NCBI GenBank assembly: GCA_944325225.1
Contig: CALUZQ010000009.1
Location: 1 to 55,981, forward strand
Source of the DNA: an uncultured Elusimicrobiales bacterium
GTDB taxonomy: Bacteria; Elusimicrobiota; Elusimicrobia; Elusimicrobiales; Elusimicrobiaceae
Direction of reading: 5' to 3'
Length of the DNA stretch: 55,981 nucleotides
In this document: positions 10,159-26,395 of the stretch, piece by piece
Layout of the letters: each line of letters opens with the position of its first letter
Position numbering within the stretch: position 1 is the first letter of the stretch
Translations under genes and position numbers: made by a program
The notes under the pieces: generated by a model
Seen by the model: only the letters and a program-made list of their open reading frames with translations
Databases searched by the model: none
What the model was told of the DNA's origin: nothing

Positions 10159-10683
10159 ATGGCTATTCTGCGTGTTACAAAATACGGCGAAAATATCCTG
10201 CGCCAAAAATTAAAACCCGTTGATTTTAAGCAACTTGAGCCGCTTCTGCCCAAGTTGCTTAAAGATATGGAAGAAACCTGTCTGGCCGTGCGCGGGGTGG
10301 GGTTGGCGGCCAACCAAATCGGGCTGGAATACCGCATGGCGGTTATTTTGATTCCCGAATCTGCCGAAGAAAACGCACCGTTAAAACGCTATGTAATTAT
10401 TAATCCGGAAATTATTTCCAAACGGGGGGAAAAGCTGGAAGAAGAAGGGTGTCTTTCCCTGCCCGGCTTATGGGCCGAAGTCAAACGCGCCACCGATGTA
10501 ACCATTAAATATATAGACGAAAACGGGCAGGAACAAGTCAAACGCGCCCGCGGCCTGTTGGCCAAAGCGTTCCAGCACGAAGTGGACCATTTGGACGGGA
10601 AATTGTTTATTGATTTAGTGGACCCTGCCTTAAAACCGGAAGTAAAAAAAGCCATTAAAAAGTTGCGGAAAGATTGGAATTAA
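10159..10683 (+). CDS. def: Peptide deformylase
   Basis: A 174-residue metalloenzyme that removes the N-formyl group from nascent proteins. All three family motifs are intact: GVGLAANQIG (46-55), EGCLSLPG with metal ligand C98, and QHEVDHLDG with ligands H140 and H144 and catalytic E141. The ATG has no Shine-Dalgarno sequence; TAAAAT (10147-10152) ends 6 nt before it, arguing for a leaderless mRNA. A strong terminator follows. Confidence 0.97.
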   Translation: MAILRVTKYGENILRQKLKPVDFKQLEPLLPKLLKDMEETCLAVRGVGLAANQIGLEYRMAVILIPESAEENAPLKRYVIINPEIISKRGEKLEEEGCLSLPGLWAEVKRATDVTIKYIDENGQEQVKRARGLLAKAFQHEVDHLDGKLFIDLVDPALKPEVKKAIKKLRKDWN

Positions 10684-10688
10684 GTTTT

Positions 10689-10722
10689 AAAATCCCCGGG
10701 TCGGCCCGGGGATTTTAGTTTA
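10689..10722 (+). terminator. Intrinsic terminator of def
   Basis: Perfect 12-bp stem AAAATCCCCGGG / CCCGGGGATTTT (10689-10700 with 10705-10716), loop TCGG, T-rich end. Confidence 0.9.
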
Positions 10723-10767: not shown

Positions 10768-10796
10768 TTGCGCGCTGCGTAAAATTTTTCTACACT
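10768..10796 (+). promoter_or_regulatory. Promoter of the lysA leader
   Basis: TTGCGC (10768-10773), exact 17-bp spacer, TACACT (10791-10796). The start point would fall at about 10801-10803, so the leader peptide ATG at 10803 would be at or very near the 5' end. The same TACACT -10 box is used before the F420 ligase-like gene. Confidence 0.6.
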
Positions 10797-10802
10797 AAAC
10801 AT

Positions 10803-10895
10803 ATGGCCACTATTTTATTCGTAAAGCGTGCAAGCAAACAGATCAAGAGCAAAAAAAGCTCTTGCGGTTTTGCTTACAATTTTGCGGATAATTAA
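10803..10895 (+). CDS. Lysine-rich leader peptide of the lysA attenuator
   Basis: A 30-codon ORF in the lysA leader: ATG at 10803, stop TAA at 10893-10895. It has five lysine codons (8, 12, 15, 17, 18), four of them in the run KQIKSKK, matching the end product of the downstream gene. The codons lie inside the 5' arm and loop of a hairpin (10832-10875) that competes with an antiterminator. No Shine-Dalgarno sequence; the -10 box ends 6 nt upstream, so initiation is probably leaderless. Its job would be to stall ribosomes when charged tRNA-Lys is scarce. It is too short to support by homology; the evidence is composition, position and RNA structure. Confidence 0.75.
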   Translation: MATILFVKRASKQIKSKKSSCGFAYNFADN

Positions 10896-10954
10896 CAGCC
10901 CATTTAAATCACTTTGCAACCCCTCCGCTTAATTGTAAGCGGGGGGATTTTTTA
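10832..10954 (+). promoter_or_regulatory. Transcription attenuator upstream of lysA (pause hairpin, antiterminator, terminator)
   Basis: Three mutually exclusive structures. (1) Pause/anti-antiterminator hairpin: CAAGAGC/GCTCTTG (10844-10850 with 10858-10864), extended by AAGCAAA/TTTGCTT (10832-10838 with 10869-10875). (2) Antiterminator: GCTTACAATT/AATTGTAAGC (10872-10881 with 10931-10940), extendable by G-U pairs. (3) Terminator: CCCTCCGCTTA/TAAGCGGGGGG (10921-10931 with 10936-10946), loop ATTG, then ATTTTTT. The terminator ends only 30 nt before the lysA ATG, leaving no room for a separate promoter, so lysA must be transcribed through it. Confidence 0.8.
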
Positions 10955-10984
10955 TGGGTCGTTGCAAACGAAGAGGAGAAAAAT

Positions 10985-12235
10985 ATGTGTTTTCATTATC
11001 AAGGCGGTGAACTTTTTGCGGAAGGGGTGGATTTAAAAAAGATTGCCCAACAAGTGGGTACTCCCTTTTATTGCTATTCCACCAGCAAGCTGACTCAAAA
11101 TTTCAATGCCTACCGCACGACTCTGGCCGATTTAAACGGCACGGTATGCTATTCGGTCAAAGCCAATCCCAATTTAAGCGTGGTGGCCGCTATCGCCCGG
11201 CTGGGCGGCGGGGCGGATGTTGTTTCCGGGGGGGAATTATATGTGGCGTTAAAAGCGGGAATCCCGGCGGATAAAATTGTATTTTCCGGAGTGGGAAAAA
11301 CGGTGGAAGAATTGTCGGAAGCGGTGCGGCTGGGTATTTTGCAGATTAATGCCGAATCGGCCGCCGAAGTGGAAATGATTAACCAAATAGCCGTTTCCCA
11401 GGGGAAAAAAGCCAATGTGGCGCTTCGTGTAAACCCTGATGTAGATGCGTTAACCCATGTTAAAATTACCACCGGCACCAAAGAAAATAAATTTGGCGTG
11501 CCGTGGCAGGAAGCGCACGAATTGTATTTGGCGGCTTCCAAAATGCCGGGTATTCGGATTGCCGGGATTGCGGTGCATATCGGGTCGCAGTTATTGGATT
11601 TGGAACCGTTCCGGCTGGCATTTACTAAAATAGCGTCCATGGTGCGCGCTTTAGAGGCCGACGGCATTGCCATTGAAAATGTGGATTTGGGCGGCGGTAT
11701 GGGCATTAACTACAATGTAGAGCTCCCGCCCACTTGCGAGGCCTACGCCCTGGTGGTGCGCGAAACTTTGGGCGACCTGCACAAGCATATTATTGTAGAA
11801 CCCGGCCGTTCGGTGGTGGGTAATGCAGGAATTCTGGTAACGGAAGTAATTTGTTCTAAATCCAACGGCGAGAAAAACTTTATTATTGTAGATGCCGGTA
11901 TGAACGATTTGGTCCGCCCGGCTTTGTATGATGCGTGGCATACCATTTTGCCGGTCAGCAAACAGGGGGTAGCCCCGATTATTGCCGATATCGTCGGCCC
12001 GATTTGCGAATCCGGCGATGTTTTCGCCCATGAACGCATTATTGAACCTGTCCAGCCCGGGGGACTACTTGCTATAATGTGTGCTGGGGCGTATGGGGCG
12101 GCGATGTCGTCCATTTACAATTTCCGCCCGCTGGTGCCGGAGGTGATGGTCAGCGGGGGAGAGTTTGCCGTCGTGCGCAAACGCACTTCGTATGAAGAAA
12201 TGCTCAGCGGGCATATGCTTGCCCCGTGGCTGTAA
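10985..12235 (+). CDS. lysA: Diaminopimelate decarboxylase
   Basis: A 416-residue PLP enzyme that decarboxylates meso-diaminopimelate to L-lysine, the last step of the pathway. The Schiff-base lysine is K59 in CYSVKAN. Other family motifs: HIGSQ, GGGMGINY, EPGRSVVGNAG, CESGDVFA (catalytic Cys) and CAGAYGAAMSS with the closing RPLVPEV. The start follows GAGGAG. It lies directly behind the attenuator described at 10832-10954 and is followed after 9 nt by an aspartokinase, so the lysine-pathway entry and exit steps share one transcript. Confidence 0.97.
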   Translation: MCFHYQGGELFAEGVDLKKIAQQVGTPFYCYSTSKLTQNFNAYRTTLADLNGTVCYSVKANPNLSVVAAIARLGGGADVVSGGELYVALKAGIPADKIVFSGVGKTVEELSEAVRLGILQINAESAAEVEMINQIAVSQGKKANVALRVNPDVDALTHVKITTGTKENKFGVPWQEAHELYLAASKMPGIRIAGIAVHIGSQLLDLEPFRLAFTKIASMVRALEADGIAIENVDLGGGMGINYNVELPPTCEAYALVVRETLGDLHKHIIVEPGRSVVGNAGILVTEVICSKSNGEKNFIIVDAGMNDLVRPALYDAWHTILPVSKQGVAPIIADIVGPICESGDVFAHERIIEPVQPGGLLAIMCAGAYGAAMSSIYNFRPLVPEVMVSGGEFAVVRKRTSYEEMLSGHMLAPWL

Positions 12236-12244
12236 GGAGATCGT

Positions 12245-12973
12245 ATGAGAAAAATTTGCATTATGAAATTTGGCGGCAACACGCTGGCTAATAAACAAAA
12301 ACTTTTAATGGCCGCGGAGTTGATTAAATCCCGCTACGATGATAATTTTATTCCGGTGGTGGTGGCTTCCGCCAACGGGAATTTGACCGATGTCTTGCTG
12401 GACCATGCTTTTAGCATTACGCCTTCTCCTAACAAACGCGAGCTGGATATGCTGGTTACTACGGGGGAGCGCGTGAGCGTGGCGCTGTTGTCTATCGCGC
12501 TGCGTGCGATAGGGGTGCCGTCGGTATCGCTGACGGGCTCTCAAATCGGGCTGATTACCACCTGCACCCACACGGGGGCGGATATTTTGGAATTGAAGGG
12601 GAACCGACTGGTGCGGGAAATTCAAGACGGTCATGTGCCGATAGTGGCCGGCTTTCAGGGTATTGGCGAAAATAAGGAAATCACGACTTTAAAACGCGGG
12701 GGGAGCGATGTGTCCGCCGTGTTTTTGGCGGCCCAGCTGGGGGCCGACCATGTGGAAATGGTCAAAGATGTGGACGGCGTCTATTCCGCCGACCCCAATA
12801 AAGATTTAAAGGCCCAAAAATACGAAGTGCTGGATTTTGACGAAATGTACAAGCTGGCGCTGAACGGGGCCAATGTGCTCCACCCGGACGCCGTACGGCT
12901 GGCGAAAGAGAAAGGGGTGGAGATACGCATCGTCCATTATCAAACGGGGCAGACAGGCACTGTCATTAAATAA
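12245..12973 (+). CDS. lysC: Aspartate kinase, catalytic domain only
   Basis: A 242-residue amino-acid kinase that phosphorylates aspartate, the first step toward lysine, threonine and methionine. N-terminal KFGGNT (usually KFGGTS), TTGERVSVALLS, TLKRGGSDVSA, KDVDGVYSADP and a final ANVLHPDAV are all as in aspartokinases. The usual enzyme has about 400 residues with two C-terminal ACT domains for feedback inhibition; this one stops right after the catalytic domain, at a clean stop codon, with no ACT sequence in other frames downstream. It may be insensitive to lysine or use a separate regulatory subunit. The start follows AAGGAG. Confidence 0.9.
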   Translation: MRKICIMKFGGNTLANKQKLLMAAELIKSRYDDNFIPVVVASANGNLTDVLLDHAFSITPSPNKRELDMLVTTGERVSVALLSIALRAIGVPSVSLTGSQIGLITTCTHTGADILELKGNRLVREIQDGHVPIVAGFQGIGENKEITTLKRGGSDVSAVFLAAQLGADHVEMVKDVDGVYSADPNKDLKAQKYEVLDFDEMYKLALNGANVLHPDAVRLAKEKGVEIRIVHYQTGQTGTVIK

Positions 12974-16987: not shown

Positions 16988-19900
16988 ATGAAAAATAAAA
17001 ACCTTGAACCTATCGCCATCGTTGGTATTGGGGCGATTATGCCCGGAGCGTTAAATAAAGACGAGTTCTGGAGCAACATTAAAGAAGGCAAATACTGCAT
17101 TACTGAAATTCCTGCATCATACTGGGACTATAAACTTTTCTACAGTCCCGATCATAAAGCCGAAGATAAGCTGTACTCCAAAATCGGCGGTTTTATTCCC
17201 CAGTCCTTTAAATTCAATTCCTTAAAATACCGCATTCCTCCGCAAATTGCCAAGCAAATGGACACTGTTCAGCACCTGGCTATTGAAACCACGCGCATGG
17301 CGCTGGAAGATTCCGGTTATGATAAAAAAGAGTTTGACCATAACCGCACTGCGGTCATTATCGGCAACTCTATGGGCGGTATGAAAAACGAAATGTCCAA
17401 CACCCGGTTGAACCGTCCGTTTATTTACGAGATTCTTAAAAATACCCCTTCCTTTAAATCGCTGGCTCCGGCCGATGCACAGAAAATGCTGGACGAAATG
17501 GACGCCGGCGTGCGGGAAAAATTTACCCCGATTACCGAAGATTCCATGCCGGGCGAACTGGCCAATGTAATCCCCGGCCGCGTAGCCAATGTGTTTGACC
17601 TGCACGGCACCAACTTCGCGGTGGACGCGGCCTGTGCCACCTCGCTGGCTGCCATTGACCAGGCCGTCAACGGGCTGCGCATGGGTAACTTTGACATGGC
17701 CATTGCAGGCGGTGTAGATCAGATGATGTCTCCCTCTGCCTATATCAAATTCTGCAAAATTGGGGCTTTGTCCGACACGGGTTCCTATCCGTTTGATGCC
17801 CGTGCTAACGGCTTTGTAATGGCCGAAGGCGCTGGTATGGTTATTTTGAAACGCTTGTCCGACGCCGTTAAAGACGGCGACCGCGTTTATGCCGTTATTC
17901 GCGCTGTGGGTGCTTCTTCCGACGGAAAAGGAAAAGGCATTACCGCGCCTAACCCCAAAGGCCAAAAGCTGGCGGTGGAAAAAGCGTTTGAACAATTGGA
18001 CTATACGCCCGAAGCCGTTGGGCTGTTGGAAGCACACGGCACCGGTACCCGTGTGGGCGATGCGGTGGAACTGGAAGCGCTGACTGAACTTTTTGGTCCG
18101 TATGTCAAACCCGGCAGCATTGGGTTGGGCAGTGTAAAGAGCCAAATCGGCCACGCCAAAGCAGCGGCTGGGATTGCTTCGTTAATTAAAACTTCGCTGG
18201 CCTTATATAATAAGGTGTTGCCGCCCTCTGTTAATTTTGAAACGCCCAACCCGATTGTGGATTGGGCTACCTGCCCGTTCCGCGTGATTACCAAAGCGGA
18301 AGAATGGAAAGGCGATAAAATCCGCCGCGCCAATGTATCCGCCTTCGGTTTCGGCGGGACGAACTTCCATGTGGCGATGGAAGAAATGAATGACGGACTT
18401 TTGAAAAAATCCGAAGAAGCCAAACAACAAGCAACCGTTTCACCCATACAGGAGAATGTTTCTATGAACAGCCGTAATGCTTATACCCTGCATGTTCCCG
18501 GAGAAAAAATCCAAAGCGATGTGCTGACTTTTTCCGCCGCGACCAAACAGGACCTTTTTAATGTGTTGGATAAAGCGCTTGTCGCTATTGAATACGATCC
18601 CACTTACCTGCCGAGCATTTCCTATAAAAACCATATGGAAAACCCGGCCAAATTTGCGGTAACGATTAATGTGGAATCGCCGGAAAAACTCAAAGAAAAA
18701 ATTGCTTTTTTCAAGAAAACGGCTTCTTCGCAAGATGTGTGGGAACAGGAATCGCTGTACCTGCGCATGAAAGGCATTTATCCGTTTGTTCCGTCGGAAA
18801 TTAAACCCAAAGTTTGCTTTATGTTCCCGGGCCAGGGTTCGCAGTATGTGGATATGATGAAGGACCTGGCTTCCAAATATAAAGTAGTGCAGGATACCTT
18901 TGACGAGGCCGACCGCCTGCTGATGAACATCATCGGCCAGAACTTAACCGATACCTTGTGGAGCAAACCCGGCGAAACGAAAGAACAAATCGCCGTGCGC
19001 GAAGCCGCCATTAAGAAAACCGAAATGACTCAGCCCGCGGTGCTGACGGCGGATATCGCCATGATGCGGCTGTTGTCCTCGTTCGGTATTAAACCCGATG
19101 TGGTGATGGGCCATAGCTTGGGCGAATATGCGGCTGCCGTGGCTGCCGGTATTTTTGATTTTGAAAACGGGCTGAAAGCCGTTTGCACGCGCGGGAAAGT
19201 GATGTCCGAAATTAAAGTGGAGGACAACGGCAAAATGGCCTCTATCGCGGCCCCGGTGGAACGCGTGGAGCCCGAATTGGTGCGCATCAGCGGTTATGTG
19301 GCGGTAGCCAACAAGAACTGCCCGACGCAAACCGTTATTGCCGGCGCTAGCAAATCCATTGATGACGCAATTAAAATGTTTACCGATATGGGTATCCAGG
19401 CCGTACAGATTCCCGTGTCGCATGCTTTCCATTCGGCCATTGTCCGCCCAGCCATGCCGCAGTACCGCGCTTTCTTGGATACGCTGACCTTTAACGCCCC
19501 CAAGATGCCCATTACTACCAATGTAACGGCGGAATTCTATCCGAACGATCCGGAAAAAATCAAAGATTTAATGGTTACGCAGATTTCCCATTCCGTAGAA
19601 TGGATCAAACAGCTGCAAACCACCTATGATTCCGGTGTACGGTTGTTTGTGGAATGCGGCCCCAAACGCGTACTTTCGGCGTTGGCTTCCAACACCTTGT
19701 CTGATAAAAAGGATATCAAAGTGTTGGCTTCCAACCACCCCAAAAAAGGCGGCATTGTGGAATTTAACGATTTGTTTGCCAACTTGATTTCTTCCGGCAT
19801 TCACCTGGATTGGAAAGGGACCGATATGTACGGCGACAATTCCACCTTCAACCCGGCGTTTGTAAATTGGGTAACCGGCAACGCTACCCCGACGGAAAAA

Positions 19901-22900
19901 GCCGTCGGCACCGTGCAAGAAAATAAAGTTTGTGCGTGCAAAGCGGCTCCGTGCGTTTCCAACGATAACGGCGGTAAGAAAACCGTGGTTATCAGCGGTA
20001 TTGCCGCGGGCGGCCCGGGCAGCTGGGATAAGATTTTCCGCGAAGGCGTGTTGGACGAAATTCTCTCCGGGCGCAATATGATTGAACCCGTGAGCTCTGA
20101 AGTTCAGCAAAAACAAATTGATAAACATGTAGAATTTGTTATCAAATCCAAAGACGGCAACCACCGCATTGAACGCTTAACCTCGCCGATGCAGGCCATT
20201 AAACTGGCGGCCAAAGGCGGCGCGTTTGATTTGGAAAAAGAATTCGGTCTGCCGGCCAAATGGGTCCGCTCTATGGACCGCAGCTTCCAGCTGGCGATTG
20301 CCGCCGGTATTTTGGCCTTAAAAGACGCGGGTATTCCGCTGGTGCTTTACTATAAACCCACCTCTACGGGCGGCTACTTGCCGGATCGCTGGGGCCTGCC
20401 GGCTGATATGATTGACGAAACGGGCGTGATTTTCACTTCCGCTTTCCCGGTAGCCAACAGCATGATGGGGGATTTGACCAAACGCGTAACGGGGCTTCTT
20501 AATAATAAGACCGCCAAAGAAGTGCGTGCGTTCTGCGATAAATTTATTTCCCAAATTTCCGACCCGGCTTTGAAAGCGGAAATTGAAGCGTGGTATCAGG
20601 CCAACTTTAAAGACAAAGAAGTGGAGCCGGCCGCGTTTACTTCGGAATTTATTTTAAAGACGATTATCATCGCCCACTCGCACTTCTGCCAATGGATTCG
20701 CGCGCGCGGCCCGGCGACTGCGATGAGCGCCGCCTGTGCTTCTACCGCGCAGGCCGTAGCCGTGGCGCAGGACTGGATTAAACTGGGCCGCTGCAAACGC
20801 GTCATTGTCATCAGCGCCGACGATCCGACCAATGACAATATCTCCGAATGGATTTTAACGGCTTTCCTGGCCTCCGGTGCCGCTACAACGGAAGCCGATG
20901 TAACCAAGGCCGCCCTGCCCTTTGACCGCCGCAGAAACGGTATGATTGTAGGCATGGGTGCGGTATCTTTGATTGTGGAAGATGAAGCCGAAGTAGCCAA
21001 ACGCGGTATGAAACCGCTTGCCAAGCTGTTATCTACAGAGATTGCCAACAGCGGTTTCCATGTAACTCGCTTGGATGTGGCGCATGTGGCGCAAGTGATG
21101 AACCGCCTGGTAGCCACCGCCGAAAAGGAATATGGTTTGAACCGCTCTGATATTGCCAAGCAGTTGGTGTTTATCTCGCATGAAACTTATACGCCGGCGC
21201 GCGGCGGATCTGCCAGTGCGGAAGCGTATGCGTTAAAATCCACCTTTGGCAAGGATGTCAGCAGTGTAATCGTCAGCAATACCAAAGGGTTCACCGGCCA
21301 CTCCATGGGCGCCGGGTTGGAAGACGCAATCGCCGTGCGCTGCCTGAACACCGGGCTCGTGCCGCCGATTGCCAACTTCAAAGAAGCCGATCCCGAACTG
21401 GAAGGCATTACGCTTAGCAAAGGCGGGCACTACAACTTTAAATATGCCTTGCGCTTGGCGGCGGGATTTGGTTCCCAATTAGGTATGACTTTACTGGAAA
21501 AAATGTGGCAGGAAGGCGAACCTCGCATCGCCGATGAAGCCAAACACCAAGCTTGGCTGAAGGAAATCTCCGGTCAGCAAGCCCCGGTGTTGGAAGTGGT
21601 GCAGAATACGCTTCGCATTAAAGACAACTATCAGCATGGGGTAAAACCCGCGTTGGTGATGGAAGGGTCCCAGGCGTTTGTGGATAAAGTAAACGCCGCC
21701 CATATGCACGCGGTTCAGCCCGCGTCGGCCCCCGCGGTACAAGCGGCTCCGGCGGCAGTAGCCCCGGCTGTGCAACCTGCGCCTGCTCCCAAAGCCGTGG
21801 CGTTGGACGAAGCGGCAGTAACCAAAGAAGTGGTTAAAATGGTGGGCGAAAAAACCGGCTATCCGGAAGATATGCTGGATATTGACTTGGATATGGAAGC
21901 CGACCTGGGTATTGATACCGTCAAACAAGCGGAACTGTTTGCCAGCTTGCGCGAACATTACGGGATTGCCCAGCAGGACGGAATCCAACTCAAAGATTAT
22001 CCGACGATCCGCCACTGCATTAAATTTGTGTTAGCCAATGCCGGCAAACCGGCGGCGGCCCAAGCGGCGGTAGCCCCGGCTCCTGCGGCAGCAGTCCCGG
22101 CTGTGCAACCTGCGCCTGCTCCCAAAGCCGTGGCGTTGGACGAAGCGGCAGTAACCAAAGAAGTGGTGGGTATGGTCGCCGAAAAAACGGGGTACCCCGA
22201 AGATATGTTGGATATTGACCTGGATATGGAAGCCGACCTGGGTATTGATACCGTCAAACAAGCGGAACTCTTTGCCAGCTTGCGTGAACATTACGGGATT
22301 GCCCAGCAGGACGGAATCCAACTTAAAGATTATCCGACAATCCGCCACTGCATTAAATTTGTGTTAGCCAATGCCGGCAAACCGGCGGCGGCTGTCCAAG
22401 CGGCCCCGGCCGTGCAATCTGCTCCGGCGCCTGTGGCTCAGCCCGCTCCAGTAGCTGTGTCCCCAGTTGTGGCTCCGGCTCCTGCGGCCCAAGCGGCGGT
22501 TTCGTTGAATGAAGAATCCGTAACCAAAGAAGTGGTGGGTATGGTCGCCGAAAAGACGGGCTATCCGGAAGATATGCTGGAACTGGACCTGGATATGGAA
22601 GCCGACTTGGGTATTGATACGGTCAAGCAAGCGGAACTGTTTGCTGCGATGCGCGAGCATTACGGGATTGCCCAGCAGGAAGGAATCCAGCTCAAAGATT
22701 ATCCGACGATCCGCCACTGCATTAAATTTGTGTTAGCCAATGCCGGCAAACCGGCGGCGGCTGTCCAACCGGCTCCGGCCGTGCAACCTGCCCCGGCGGC
22801 AGTAACGCCTGCCCCGGCTCCTGCGGCTCAGCCCGCTCCTGCGCCGGTGGTCCAAGCGGCTCCGGCAGCGCAACCTGCGCCCGCTCTCAAAGCCGTGGCG

Positions 22901-25900
22901 TTGGACGAAGCTACCGTTACCAAAGAAATCGTAGCCATGGTGGCCGAAAAAACGGGTTATCCGGAAGATATGTTGGAACTGGACCTGGATATGGAAGCCG
23001 ACCTGGGTATTGATACGGTCAAGCAAGCCGAACTGTTTGCTGCGATGCGCGAGCATTACGGGATTGCCCAGCAGGAAGGAATCCAGCTCAAAGATTATCC
23101 GACGATCCGCCACTGCATTAAATTTGTGTTAGCCAATGCCGGCAAACCGGCGGCGGCTGTCCAACCGGCTCCGGCCGTGCAACCTGCCCCGGCGGCAGTA
23201 ACGCCTGCCCCGGCTCCTGCGGCTCAGCCCGCTCCTGCGCCGGTGGTCCAAGCGGCTCCGGCAGCGCAACCTGCGCCCGCTCTCAAAGCCGTGGCGTTGG
23301 ACGAAGCTACCGTTACCAAAGAAATCGTAGCCATGGTGGCCGAAAAAACGGGTTATCCGGAAGATATGTTGGAACTGGACCTGGATATGGAAGCCGACCT
23401 GGGTATTGATACGGTCAAGCAAGCCGAACTGTTTGCTGCGATGCGCGAGCATTACGGGATTGCCCAGCAGGAAGGAATCCAGCTCAAAGATTATCCGACG
23501 ATCCGCCACTGCATCAACTTTGCCTTAGCCAATGCGGGCGGTCAAGCCGCTCCTGTGGCTCCTGCGGCGGCAGTGGTAACGCCTGCTCCGGCCCCGGCGG
23601 CTCAGCCCGCTCCTGAGGCCCCGGCTGTGCAAGCTGCCCCGGCTCCGGTCGTTAGCGCCCCGGCGGCTCCGGCTCCGAAATTAGCCAAGAAGCCGGAACA
23701 TGTGGTGGCTGAACATATCGGCGCGCCGCAAGCAGATGCGTTGATTACGAATCCGACGGCTCCGGTTGAAAAACATTTTTCCTTGGCGGAACGCCCCGAA
23801 CGGGAAGGATACCAAGGCGAACATTGCCACGAGAAAAAGCTGCGCTATGTAACCACCGTGGCCGATGCGCCGCTGACTGAACGCGAAAACAGACGCTTGT
23901 CCAAAGACCGCACCATCCTGCTGTTTGCGGACAATTCGCAGCTCATCAAAGCGTATCAGGAAGAATTTAAAGAACTGGGTGTAAAATACCATGTATTTAC
24001 CACGCTCAAAACCCGCAGCAAAAATACGACCATCGTGAATTGGGAATCGTATGAAGAAACCGAAGCGGCGTTGAAAGACTACGCTGCCGAAGATCCGAAT
24101 ATCCAGGGTATCGTATATCTGCTGGGTGCGTCCATTAAGAAATTTGACAAGAAAGCCAGCCCGCATGCCGAGCTGACCAAATATGTCATGCCGCTGTTTA
24201 TTGCCTTGCGCGTATTTGAAAAAGGGCTTGCTAACCGCCAGGACGCCGATACCTTCTTTGCGGTCAACACCAAGATTGACGGTAACTTCGGTTATACCAC
24301 CAAAGACGAGTTCAACCCCATCGTGGGCGCGCTCACTGGCGGTACGACCTGCTACCGCAAAGATGTGTATGAACGCACGGGTGCAATTTCCAAACTGATG
24401 GACTTTGAACCGACGGCCACGCCCGATGAAATGGCCCAAAAGACCATGGACGAAGTGCTCCACGGCGATATGCGCTTGATGATTGGTACGCGCGACAATG
24501 TCCGCTCCACCATTCTCTCGCTGCCAACCCGCCTGGACAGAAGCGTCAAACACTTTGACCTGGCCGGCAAAACCATTATCTTTACCGGTTCCGGCCGTGG
24601 TATTGGAGCCATGCTCTCGCAGAAAATCGCCGCTCAGTACCACAGCAAAATCATCGTGCTGGACATCATTGAAATCCAGGAGAAAACGCCGCTGTGGGCT
24701 TCTATGAACGAAGCCGAATTGGCCGCGCTTAAAAAACAGATCTGGGAAGACCTCAAGGCCGATAAGACTCAAAAGGCCACCCCGGTCCTGTTGGAACGCG
24801 CTTTCGGCCGCGTGAAAGATTCCATTACGCTCTACAACAACCTGCAGAAACTGCGCGACTTGGGCAGCGAAGTGGAATACTACCACTGCGATGTAATGAA
24901 CTCCTCTATGATGAAAGAAGTCTGCACGAAAATCAAAGCCAAAAACGGCCGTGTGGACGGACTGATTCACTTCGCCGGGCTGGAACGCTCCAAGCTGATT
25001 TACGATAAAGATCCGGCGGAATACTACCGCATCTTTGATGTCAAAGCCACCAGCTTTGCCACCTTCCTGGCCAATAACATTGTGCGCGATGACGGCTTCT
25101 TCGCTTTTGCCTCCTCCATTGCCGGCAAATACGGCAACTTGGGCCAGAGCGACTATGCCAGCGCCAACGATTATTTGGCCAAGTCGGCCTTGTCTTTGTC
25201 CAACCAGGGATACCGCGCTATCAGTATCGCCATGAGCGCCTACAAAAATGTAGGTATGGGCGTGCGCGCCGGCGTGGAAACTTTCCTGCGCTCCAACGGA
25301 GTGGACTTTGTGGACCCCGAAGACGGTATGCAGATTTTCCTGGACGAAATCGTCTATGGACGCGTGCCGGAAATCGTGCTGACGGGTTCGCTGGGCCGCT
25401 TGGATTGGGACCATCAGCTGAAATTTGAATGGGAAGAAATCGGAGCCGATGAAGATACCGGCTCCGACGACGCCCCCAAAGGCGGTTCTGCCGCGCCCGC
25501 TGCGCCGGCCGCTCCTAAAGCTGCCGCGGCGGTGGACGCCTCCAAAGCCACCCACTTTTTGGGGAATGTAACTTCGCTCCAAAAAGGTTCGGAAATTCAT
25601 CTGGAAAAAGAATTTAACTTAAATTCCGATCCGTATCTGGCCGACCACGCCATTGAAGGAACCCCCTATGTGCCGGGTGTGATGGGCATTGAAACCTTTA
25701 TGGAAACGGCTACGGCTTTAACGGGGAATGTGCCGCAGGGTCTTAAAGATGTGCATTTCTACCTGCCGATTAAACTGTTAAGAAACCGCCCGCAAGCCGT
25801 ACGCGTAATCGGAAAAGCTTCCGGCAACGAAGCGTCTATGGAAATTGAATCCGACTTCATCAACAGCAAAGGCGTAAAAATGGGCAACACCCGCCGACAT

Positions 25901-26395
25901 TTTACCGCCAAAACGCTGGACGGATTTACTTCCAACTGGGCGTCCGTCAAGGCCGAAGCGATGACCGGGCTGACCGCTCCGATGAGCGTAAGCAAAGAAG
26001 AAATTTATCAAAAATACTTCCATGGCCCGTCTTTCCAGGTTCTTGCGGGAATTGTGCGTGTGGATAAACACGCCTCGCTGGCGGTGTACAACACCACTCC
26101 GCGTCCGCAGTGGAACGACGGCCCGCGCACCTTGCTGGCCAACCCGATGTTGATTGAAGCCGCTTTCCAATGCTGCGGTTTCCAGGATATGAGCGTGGAA
26201 CACAAAATGACGCTGCCCGACGGTATCGCCGAAGTAGCGGTGCTTAAAAACCAAGTGCCGCCGGATCAGCTGTACTTGTATGGCGTCAGCCGCGGCAATA
26301 CAGCCGACGGGAAAACCCTGCACGACGCGTATGTGTTTGACGCACAGGGCGAAGTGTGGGTGGAAATCCACGGTTACCAGGCCATCGGCCAGTAA
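16988..26395 (+). CDS. Giant PUFA-synthase-like polyketide/fatty acid synthase (KS-AT-KS-ACPx5-KR-DH)
   Basis: A 3135-residue multidomain synthase in one unbroken frame. Order: KS1 (about 8-465; triad C216 in DAACATS, H350 in EAHGTGT, H389); acyltransferase (about 608-920; FPGQGSQY, S710 in GHSLGE); KS2 (about 997-1510; C1250 in SAACAST, H1398 and H1438, so catalytic rather than a chain-length-factor decoy); five ACPs (about 1600-2190) in Ala/Pro linkers; KR (about 2300-2830; GSGRGIG, Y2723); and DH with double hotdog fold (about 2850-3135; H2887 in LADHAIEGTPYVPG). No enoyl reductase or thioesterase is seen. KS1 and the ACP array resemble PfaA of bacterial PUFA synthases. Each ACP has LGIDT where LGIDS is expected (T1644, T1755, T1878, T2010, T2142). 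The product is unknown, probably an unsaturated or hydroxylated long acyl chain. The start follows TAGGAG. Confidence 0.93.
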   Translation: MKNKNLEPIAIVGIGAIMPGALNKDEFWSNIKEGKYCITEIPASYWDYKLFYSPDHKAEDKLYSKIGGFIPQSFKFNSLKYRIPPQIAKQMDTVQHLAIETTRMALEDSGYDKKEFDHNRTAVIIGNSMGGMKNEMSNTRLNRPFIYEILKNTPSFKSLAPADAQKMLDEMDAGVREKFTPITEDSMPGELANVIPGRVANVFDLHGTNFAVDAACATSLAAIDQAVNGLRMGNFDMAIAGGVDQMMSPSAYIKFCKIGALSDTGSYPFDARANGFVMAEGAGMVILKRLSDAVKDGDRVYAVIRAVGASSDGKGKGITAPNPKGQKLAVEKAFEQLDYTPEAVGLLEAHGTGTRVGDAVELEALTELFGPYVKPGSIGLGSVKSQIGHAKAAAGIASLIKTSLALYNKVLPPSVNFETPNPIVDWATCPFRVITKAEEWKGDKIRRANVSAFGFGGTNFHVAMEEMNDGLLKKSEEAKQQATVSPIQENVSMNSRNAYTLHVPGEKIQSDVLTFSAATKQDLFNVLDKALVAIEYDPTYLPSISYKNHMENPAKFAVTINVESPEKLKEKIAFFKKTASSQDVWEQESLYLRMKGIYPFVPSEIKPKVCFMFPGQGSQYVDMMKDLASKYKVVQDTFDEADRLLMNIIGQNLTDTLWSKPGETKEQIAVREAAIKKTEMTQPAVLTADIAMMRLLSSFGIKPDVVMGHSLGEYAAAVAAGIFDFENGLKAVCTRGKVMSEIKVEDNGKMASIAAPVERVEPELVRISGYVAVANKNCPTQTVIAGASKSIDDAIKMFTDMGIQAVQIPVSHAFHSAIVRPAMPQYRAFLDTLTFNAPKMPITTNVTAEFYPNDPEKIKDLMVTQISHSVEWIKQLQTTYDSGVRLFVECGPKRVLSALASNTLSDKKDIKVLASNHPKKGGIVEFNDLFANLISSGIHLDWKGTDMYGDNSTFNPAFVNWVTGNATPTEKAVGTVQENKVCACKAAPCVSNDNGGKKTVVISGIAAGGPGSWDKIFREGVLDEILSGRNMIEPVSSEVQQKQIDKHVEFVIKSKDGNHRIERLTSPMQAIKLAAKGGAFDLEKEFGLPAKWVRSMDRSFQLAIAAGILALKDAGIPLVLYYKPTSTGGYLPDRWGLPADMIDETGVIFTSAFPVANSMMGDLTKRVTGLLNNKTAKEVRAFCDKFISQISDPALKAEIEAWYQANFKDKEVEPAAFTSEFILKTIIIAHSHFCQWIRARGPATAMSAACASTAQAVAVAQDWIKLGRCKRVIVISADDPTNDNISEWILTAFLASGAATTEADVTKAALPFDRRRNGMIVGMGAVSLIVEDEAEVAKRGMKPLAKLLSTEIANSGFHVTRLDVAHVAQVMNRLVATAEKEYGLNRSDIAKQLVFISHETYTPARGGSASAEAYALKSTFGKDVSSVIVSNTKGFTGHSMGAGLEDAIAVRCLNTGLVPPIANFKEADPELEGITLSKGGHYNFKYALRLAAGFGSQLGMTLLEKMWQEGEPRIADEAKHQAWLKEISGQQAPVLEVVQNTLRIKDNYQHGVKPALVMEGSQAFVDKVNAAHMHAVQPASAPAVQAAPAAVAPAVQPAPAPKAVALDEAAVTKEVVKMVGEKTGYPEDMLDIDLDMEADLGIDTVKQAELFASLREHYGIAQQDGIQLKDYPTIRHCIKFVLANAGKPAAAQAAVAPAPAAAVPAVQPAPAPKAVALDEAAVTKEVVGMVAEKTGYPEDMLDIDLDMEADLGIDTVKQAELFASLREHYGIAQQDGIQLKDYPTIRHCIKFVLANAGKPAAAVQAAPAVQSAPAPVAQPAPVAVSPVVAPAPAAQAAVSLNEESVTKEVVGMVAEKTGYPEDMLELDLDMEADLGIDTVKQAELFAAMREHYGIAQQEGIQLKDYPTIRHCIKFVLANAGKPAAAVQPAPAVQPAPAAVTPAPAPAAQPAPAPVVQAAPAAQPAPALKAVALDEATVTKEIVAMVAEKTGYPEDMLELDLDMEADLGIDTVKQAELFAAMREHYGIAQQEGIQLKDYPTIRHCIKFVLANAGKPAAAVQPAPAVQPAPAAVTPAPAPAAQPAPAPVVQAAPAAQPAPALKAVALDEATVTKEIVAMVAEKTGYPEDMLELDLDMEADLGIDTVKQAELFAAMREHYGIAQQEGIQLKDYPTIRHCINFALANAGGQAAPVAPAAAVVTPAPAPAAQPAPEAPAVQAAPAPVVSAPAAPAPKLAKKPEHVVAEHIGAPQADALITNPTAPVEKHFSLAERPEREGYQGEHCHEKKLRYVTTVADAPLTERENRRLSKDRTILLFADNSQLIKAYQEEFKELGVKYHVFTTLKTRSKNTTIVNWESYEETEAALKDYAAEDPNIQGIVYLLGASIKKFDKKASPHAELTKYVMPLFIALRVFEKGLANRQDADTFFAVNTKIDGNFGYTTKDEFNPIVGALTGGTTCYRKDVYERTGAISKLMDFEPTATPDEMAQKTMDEVLHGDMRLMIGTRDNVRSTILSLPTRLDRSVKHFDLAGKTIIFTGSGRGIGAMLSQKIAAQYHSKIIVLDIIEIQEKTPLWASMNEAELAALKKQIWEDLKADKTQKATPVLLERAFGRVKDSITLYNNLQKLRDLGSEVEYYHCDVMNSSMMKEVCTKIKAKNGRVDGLIHFAGLERSKLIYDKDPAEYYRIFDVKATSFATFLANNIVRDDGFFAFASSIAGKYGNLGQSDYASANDYLAKSALSLSNQGYRAISIAMSAYKNVGMGVRAGVETFLRSNGVDFVDPEDGMQIFLDEIVYGRVPEIVLTGSLGRLDWDHQLKFEWEEIGADEDTGSDDAPKGGSAAPAAPAAPKAAAAVDASKATHFLGNVTSLQKGSEIHLEKEFNLNSDPYLADHAIEGTPYVPGVMGIETFMETATALTGNVPQGLKDVHFYLPIKLLRNRPQAVRVIGKASGNEASMEIESDFINSKGVKMGNTRRHFTAKTLDGFTSNWASVKAEAMTGLTAPMSVSKEEIYQKYFHGPSFQVLAGIVRVDKHASLAVYNTTPRPQWNDGPRTLLANPMLIEAAFQCCGFQDMSVEHKMTLPDGIAEVAVLKNQVPPDQLYLYGVSRGNTADGKTLHDAYVFDAQGEVWVEIHGYQAIGQ
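22634..23510 (+). repeat. 396-bp tandem duplication of the ACP-linker unit
   Basis: The segment from about 22634 recurs at 23030 and again (in part) at 23426, with a constant 396-bp offset (132 codons). The linker and ACP4 are practically identical to the next linker and ACP5; divergence begins only at the end of ACP5 (HCINFA instead of HCIKFV). ACP1 and ACP2 have different spacing (111 and 123 codons) and more base differences. Confidence 0.9.

Follow-up and report, generated by a model that had tools for sequence, protein, structure and literature searches.

Known leader-peptide attenuators and the region upstream of lysA

The enteric trp, his, leu, thr, ilv and pheA attenuators combine a short ORF carrying codons for the product amino acid with competing RNA helices and an intrinsic terminator, the position of the ribosome acting as the sensor. 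RNA control of lysine genes is known in other forms: the L-box senses lysine itself, and lysine T-boxes exist as well. In the available text of the sources, amino-acid attenuator motifs are given for His, Leu, Thr and Trp, plus Ile/Val and Phe (PMC3766115), the attenuated operons named are trp, his, leu, thr, ilvGMEDA, ilvBN and pheA (PMC1183508), and the S. lividans leader peptides concern Leu, Trp, Ala, Ile, Met and Thr, several of them being leaderless (PMC8079986). Lysine is missing from the attenuator lists in the available parts of two of these papers, where lysine genes are known for L-boxes (PMC3766115, PMC8079986). Elsewhere, lysine operons are under L-boxes, and the accessible part of the same study reports no conserved RNA structure before the lysine operons of Actinobacteria (PMC1262725); in Firmicutes, leader peptides are described, in the excerpt available, in place of T-boxes (PMC2965389). 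A search of the open-licence literature (subscription papers and preprints were outside its scope) gave no lysine leader-peptide attenuator among the matches listed. In the available excerpts, Lys codons occur only as a mutant control in one paper (PMC6386406), and another deals with the speF element (PMC1273637). For attenuation in Elusimicrobia the only literature match was a paper which, in the part available, concerns the HisR repressor (PMC9413887).

The DNA analysed here (the window) is a stretch of 55,981 nt forming part of a draft genome (G000:C9) that is 92.9% complete. The original prediction placed a Lys-rich leader ORF and an attenuator in front of lysA, and the coordinates it gave for the ORF, the Lys codons, the hairpins and the terminator all hold in the sequence. 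The features are as follows.

10159-10683: def, peptide deformylase, the upstream gene, with its own terminator-like site at 10687-10718
10768..10773, + strand: predicted -35 box, TTGCGC (three of six bases match TTGACA)
10791..10796, + strand: predicted -10 box, TACACT, ending 6 nt before the leader ATG
10803..10895, + strand: Lys-rich leader ORF of 30 codons, predicted to be leaderless, conserved in 36 leaders
10832..10838, + strand: region 1, 5′ arm of the outer 1:2 hairpin, pairing with 10869-10875
10844..10864, + strand: inner 1:2 hairpin (helix 10844-10850 with 10858-10864), Lys codons 17-18 lying in the loop
10872..10888, + strand: region 2, 5′ arm of the antiterminator (10872-10881 and 10884-10888)
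10924..10940, + strand: region 3, 3′ arm of the antiterminator (10924-10928 and 10931-10940), within the terminator
10921..10953, + strand: intrinsic terminator, a stem-loop at 10921-10946 (11 pairs, loop of 4) followed by A and T6
10974..10978, + strand: lysA Shine-Dalgarno sequence, AGGAG
10985..12235, + strand: lysA, diaminopimelate decarboxylase, 416 aa (TIGR01048 above cut-off)
12245..12973, + strand: aspartokinase of 242 aa, starting 9 nt 3′ of lysA, with the catalytic domain but without an ACT domain

The leader ORF runs from the ATG at 10803 to the TAA at 10893-10895 and encodes the peptide MATILFVKRASKQIKSKKSSCGFAYNFADN, with Lys at codons 8, 12, 15, 17 and 18 (codons 15-18 correspond to 10845-10856). 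The fold of the leader region has a z-score of -4.57, none of 200 shuffled sequences being equally stable, and only 31 bases separate the end of the T run (10953) from the start of lysA (10985). At the level of sequence, the locus has an ORF with conserved Lys codons, competing pairings, a terminator with a T run and a link to lysA. It differs from the enteric attenuators in the amino acid (lysine), the phylum (Elusimicrobiota) and the predicted leaderless state of the ORF.

The conserved leader likely acts by ribosome-mediated transcription attenuation, with the availability of charged tRNA-Lys as the signal sensed. Transcription would start at the ATG, and the ORF would be translated as a leaderless message. 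When lysine is ample, the ribosome would clear the Lys codons and, from about codon 20, its leading edge would lie in region 2; with region 2 covered, the antiterminator would be blocked and transcription would stop at the terminator. Under a shortage of charged tRNA-Lys, the ribosome would stall on Lys codons no further along than codon 18, which would open the 1:2 hairpin and keep region 2 uncovered. Pairing of region 2 with region 3 would then precede synthesis of the terminator's 3′ arm, allowing read-through into lysA and the aspartokinase gene. If no ribosome is present, the terminator is predicted to form, giving a basal off state.

The principle is that of classical ribosome-mediated attenuation, and the novelty originally proposed appears to stand for the lysine specificity and for the phylum. 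It does not extend to the leaderless ORF: for S. meliloti rnTrpL and for S. lividans leuL, trpL, ilvL and thrL, the AUG is described, in the parts of the reports available, as the 5′ end of the transcript, some of them having a Rho-independent terminator (PMC10117765, PMC8079986). Those leaders serve Trp, Leu, Ile and Thr. The start proposed here is predicted from promoter spacing. The S. meliloti sORF SEP5, located in the 5′-UTR of an aspartate dehydrogenase gene and containing six Thr codons and three Lys codons, has been suggested by its authors to encode a leader peptide (PMC10117765). It resembles the present ORF in having Lys codons ahead of an aspartate-related gene, but its codons are mainly for Thr, the gene is a different one, and no antiterminator or terminator is described in the available text of that paper. 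Lysine and the phylum Elusimicrobiota would be added by this leader to the known leader-peptide attenuators.

Distribution of the leader and conservation of its ORF

lysA was found in 46 of the 90 genomes of the family that were searched. The upstream regions of 45 were read; the remaining genome (G083) was not assessable, its lysA being cut by a contig end. It had been anticipated that related genomes would keep the Lys-rich ORF, and they do so at the same position: a Lys leader with alternative antiterminator and terminator structures precedes lysA in 37 of the 45 assessable genomes, including 34 of 34 in the genus of the window. One upstream region (L006) is cut by a contig end, the rest lying on L109, and is not among the 36 leaders examined further. 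In 36 genomes, every one of them carrying lysA, a match at E < 1e-10 was obtained with a covariance model built from 34 leaders, which match it by construction; the two beyond the model rows were G067 and G012, the leader of the latter being split across two contig ends. None of the 44 family genomes lacking lysA had a match at E < 1e-10, the best (4.6e-6, in G103) being a terminator after another gene. Among the weak model matches listed, eleven regions (L103-L108 and L110-L114) were inspected and rejected, as they held unremarkable terminators, the ends of genes or short ORFs of another kind.

A strongly diverged leader (L062) was found by eye in G091; 7 of its 21 codons are for Lys, some 12 pairs of an antiterminator can be read by eye, and its fold z-score is -4.63. 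G091 is a single contig of 1,643,562 bases assigned to genus g12, and presumably represents the cultured Elusimicrobium minutum Pei191. Genus g1 we take to be Candidatus Avelusimicrobium; in the NCBI taxonomy Elusimicrobium and Candidatus Avelusimicrobium both belong to the Elusimicrobiaceae. The eight family lysA genes without this leader are those of G092 and of seven members of genus g15 (G095, G100, G101, G102, G107, G110 and G112). Two other g15 genomes, G104 and G105, have the leader together with a lysA 74% and 70% identical to that of the window, while the remaining g15 lysA genes, 49-53% identical, lack it. This split suggests that, as judged from sequence similarity, lysA and the leader travel together.

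Outside the family, 60 lysA upstream regions were sampled from 294 genomes of the phylum (231 with lysA). None was comparable and five had a weak terminator-like match; since the scan recovered eight of nine known leaders, missing L012, this zero count is not proof of absence. The scan also flagged two regions in the family. L068 (G102) has a 26-codon ORF with 5 Lys and a terminator that persisted at every ribosome position tested; it is possibly another Lys leader and was left out of the leader count. L063 (G092) has a Lys-containing ORF that is presumably the tail of the upstream gene.

All 36 leaders contain 5-7 Lys codons. Five Lys in 30 codons would by itself be weak evidence (binomial P of about 0.04, given 6.4% Lys in the long ORFs of the window), and the pattern of conservation is more specific. 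In an alignment of 35 leader peptides (L062 was excluded from the codon analysis), the only invariant residues are the start Met and K8, K17 and K18 (columns 8, 18 and 19); position K12 is Lys in 34 of the 35 and K15 in 33. When changes were inferred on the lysA tree, the K8, K17 and K18 codons had none at positions 1 and 2, and 5, 5 and 4, respectively, at position 3, all 14 being exchanges between AAA and AAG. Wobble-only change at K17 and K18 is not due to pairing, since these codons sit in the loop of the hairpin. Over the whole ORF the excess of third-base changes is moderate (134, compared with 78 at the first base and 93 at the second), as might be expected of a reading frame that is also under pairing constraint. 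Programmed frameshifting at codons 17-18 was considered and is unsupported, AAA AAA, AAA AAG and AAG AAA all being found there.

A strong conserved fold in front of lysA, a type of gene that the available text of PMC3766115 places under L-box control elsewhere, might also be a riboswitch, in which the RNA binds lysine or another small molecule and the ORF is incidental. The leader would share with the L-box (RF00168) the RNA control of lysine genes, but it has no RF00168 match. As originally stated, no L-box was found: RF00168 matched in none of the 90 family genomes, and in 4 of 14 well-known genomes used as a positive control. No Rfam family reached its cut-off at the locus; the 21 sub-threshold matches up to E 10 between 10600 and 11100 included neither a riboswitch nor a T-box, and the highest-scoring one over the leader was SprX, whose 25 bits fall short of its cut-off of 80; the T-box covariance model had no match in the window at its gathering score. 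In addition, the wobble-only change in the loop codons 17 and 18 points to selection on coding, and the G091 leader retains Lys codons and the switch logic despite little sequence in common. A riboswitch is therefore considered quite unlikely.

The coding constraint could instead reflect arrest by the nascent peptide, the basic segment around KRVSKQNKSKK itself stalling the ribosome, with some signal unrelated to the charging of tRNA-Lys as the trigger. This segment is indeed basic and strongly conserved in the genus. However, the peptides of L055, L058 and L062 are largely rewritten while their Lys codons are kept, the C-terminal frame of L012 is shifted, and the L060 ORF stops at codon 21, which leaves peptide arrest with little probability.

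The leader ORF had been supposed to be leaderless, and the conservation of its surroundings agrees with this. Of the 36 leaders, 33 have 6 nt between the -10 box and the leader ATG and the other 3 have 7 nt (4-8 nt were allowed in the search), and TTG[C/A] lies 17-18 nt 5′ of the -10 box in 35, the exception being L058. A Shine-Dalgarno-like motif precedes lysA in 36 of 36 cases and the leader ATG in none. Given this spacing and the lack of such a motif, the transcript probably begins at the ATG. In the window's genome as a whole (G000), TATACT-N3-10-ATG has 44 matches, 20 of them with a spacing of 6 or 7, against 81 for the reversed pattern; among 30 sites inspected, some start long ORFs and many do not, and a genome-wide excess of leaderless starts is suggestive only.

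Other short ORFs with this arrangement were noticed. L113 (G000:C26) and L114 (G021:C10) have a short ORF that starts 6 nt downstream of a -10-like CATAAT box and is followed by a terminator, upstream of a 16S rRNA gene whose start was judged by eye (about 1.3 kb away in L113). On the reverse strand of L106 (G009:C42), just before the model hit, an apparently leaderless short ORF (TATACT, 6 nt, ATG) with four consecutive Ile codons and a terminator lies ahead of what by eye is a small exported-looking protein.

Competing helices and ribosome position

The antiterminator of the original prediction, 10872-10881 with 10931-10940, was confirmed with its 10 pairs, but the structure is longer than claimed by up to five pairs (10884-10888 with 10924-10928), the last of which is kept in only 10 of the 33 distinct rows. 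Covariation was analysed on these 33 rows, leaving out L044 (a near-duplicate of L005) and L062 (too diverged). Against shuffled and slid controls, which flatter the structure because it was read from the first row and the other rows are relatives of that one, the antiterminator was paired in 93.3% of cells (at most 40.7% in slid versions) and doubly changed at 7 pairs and in 25 cells (3.1 and 7.0 in shuffles); the terminator was paired in 91.6% (at most 61.9%) and doubly changed at 7 pairs and in 25 cells (2.8 and 8.7); and the 1:2 hairpin was paired in 88.8% (at most 44.6%) and doubly changed at 4 pairs and in 16 cells (1.8 and 2.9), with one slid version having 5 doubly changed pairs. Further pair types exceeded the shuffles slightly or not at all for the antiterminator and the terminator (the observed value was reached in 9 and 131 of 500 shuffles, respectively), and did not do so for the 1:2 hairpin (421 of 500). 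Covariation of all three helices, which had been anticipated, is therefore well seen for the antiterminator and the terminator, whereas the alignment supports the 1:2 hairpin weakly.

One base, in alignment column 78, is common to all three helices. In the antiterminator, columns 78 and 151 form a standard pair in 34 of 34 rows (A-U in 12, G-C in 21, G-U in 1). Column 78 pairs with column 29 of the 1:2 hairpin in 31 of 33 rows, and column 151 with column 146 of the terminator in 23 of 34. Having bases in common while both covary, the antiterminator and the terminator are, by their predicted pairings, mutually exclusive.

The effect of a translating ribosome was modelled by blocking all bases up to its leading edge, assumed to lie 12 nt past the first base of the A-site codon. 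A leader was counted as switching at equilibrium if the probability of the terminator was above 0.8 for the free RNA, below 0.5 with the ribosome at codon 8, 12, 15, 17 or 18 (one such position sufficed), and above 0.8 with the ribosome at the stop codon. This was the case for 25 of the 36 leaders, against 4 of 720 controls made by shuffling. In the free RNA, the terminator probability was 0.84-1.0 in all 36. Not every Lys codon switches in every leader (codon 12 of L012 or L071, for example). In 23 of the 25, at the codons sampled, the terminator was restored by codon 19-22, just beyond the last Lys of the cluster; in L060 and L062 this occurred at codons 17-18. The expectation that a stalled ribosome frees the antiterminator, and that one finishing the ORF lets the terminator form, is thus borne out at equilibrium by these 25 leaders. 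It is not borne out by the leader of the window (L001), whose terminator is stable at equilibrium for any ribosome position; the other ten leaders that do not switch are L046, L011, L048, L049, L050, L051, L015, L016, L056 and L057. Since the terminator wins at equilibrium, a switch in the window would have to act during transcription.

In a second model the transcript was cut 5 nt into the 3′ arm of the terminator. With the ribosome at codons 8-18, the antiterminator formed in 36 of 36 leaders, with 12-18 expected pairs (14.5-14.9 in the window); with the ribosome at the stop codon, these fell to 0-8.5 (1.6 in the window). The antiterminator also formed with the ribosome at codon 4 in 35 of the 36 leaders (10.7-16.9 expected pairs), the 1:2 hairpin failing to hold it off, and without any ribosome in L043, L058, L059 and L062. 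As it appears at codon 4 too, the truncated model is not specific for Lys codons, and all it shows is that region 2 stays available as long as no ribosome covers it; for the 11 leaders that do not switch at equilibrium, this is the only point that the modelling would support. The result at codon 4 slightly lowers the confidence in attenuation.

The stability of the window's terminator at any ribosome position would also suit a plain terminator of the upstream transcript, with lysA expressed from its own promoter. A promoter scan gave no site between the terminator and lysA, a weak result since the scan was also blind to the leader's own boxes (TTGCGC was absent from its output). This explanation is nevertheless highly improbable: def already has a terminator-like site at 10687-10718, 35 of the 36 leader ORFs have promoter boxes ahead of them, only 31 nt lie between the T run and lysA, and the antiterminator covaries.

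A further pairing, TTTGCAAC with GTTGCAAA (10913-10920 with 10962-10969), flanks the terminator beside the lysA Shine-Dalgarno sequence. Exact complementarity of 6-10 bases is seen in several close relatives, and in L008 the sequences are altered yet complementary. A 5′ element controlling the stability or translation of the lysA mRNA rather than termination could make use of this pairing in the window and some relatives, but it has hardly any probability, the pairing being absent or of at most 5 bases in most leaders and all 36 leaders having a stable hairpin with a T run at its end (the T run was required by the search).

Downstream aspartokinase and proposed lysine control

An aspartokinase ORF follows lysA within about 35 nt in all 30 loci with flanking sequence (29 of the genus plus L055), and in the window, where the gap is 9 nt, the two genes are likely to be co-transcribed; in the stretches from G091, G092 and G110, no aspartokinase was found after lysA. 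In the 26 loci that do not run off the stretch, the protein ends 240-242 residues from the first aligned residue, the length of the catalytic domain, and that of G089 does likewise. In the window it has only the AA_kinase domain of Pfam and is the sole aspartokinase match in the genome. ACT domains are the route by which lysine commonly inhibits aspartokinase, and an enzyme lacking them would be expected, judging from its domain content, to escape lysine feedback. Since this aspartokinase without ACT domains is in the same probable operon, we infer that the leader would be the main lysine control of the pathway, whose lysine sensor may then sit in RNA. meso-Diaminopimelate doubles as a precursor of the cell wall, which makes it reasonable for lysine to control the decarboxylase.

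With moderate confidence, lower than for attenuation itself, we propose a broader reading in which the leader would add to the L-box and the lysine T-boxes a third way of sensing lysine through RNA, namely a leaderless, lysine-specific attenuator serving as the pathway's main lysine control. It would have been kept through deep divergence, including in the single-contig genome that is probably E. minutum, and the orphan copy in G076 could act as a small RNA.

This orphan, a second Lys leader with 27 codons, 5 Lys and an altered terminator, lies at positions 580-738 of L102 (G076:C23), where the next genes appear by eye to be on the opposite strand; it may be a remnant or a free-standing small RNA. 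About half of family f1 (44 of 90 genomes) has no lysA match, some of these genomes being incomplete, and this suggests lysine auxotrophy in many lineages of the family. Finally, positions 16988-26395 of the window contain a 3135-aa ORF that by eye resembles a ketosynthase/multi-ACP lipid megasynthase; a pfaA-type (type R) cluster is described for E. minutum in the available text of PMC3098273.
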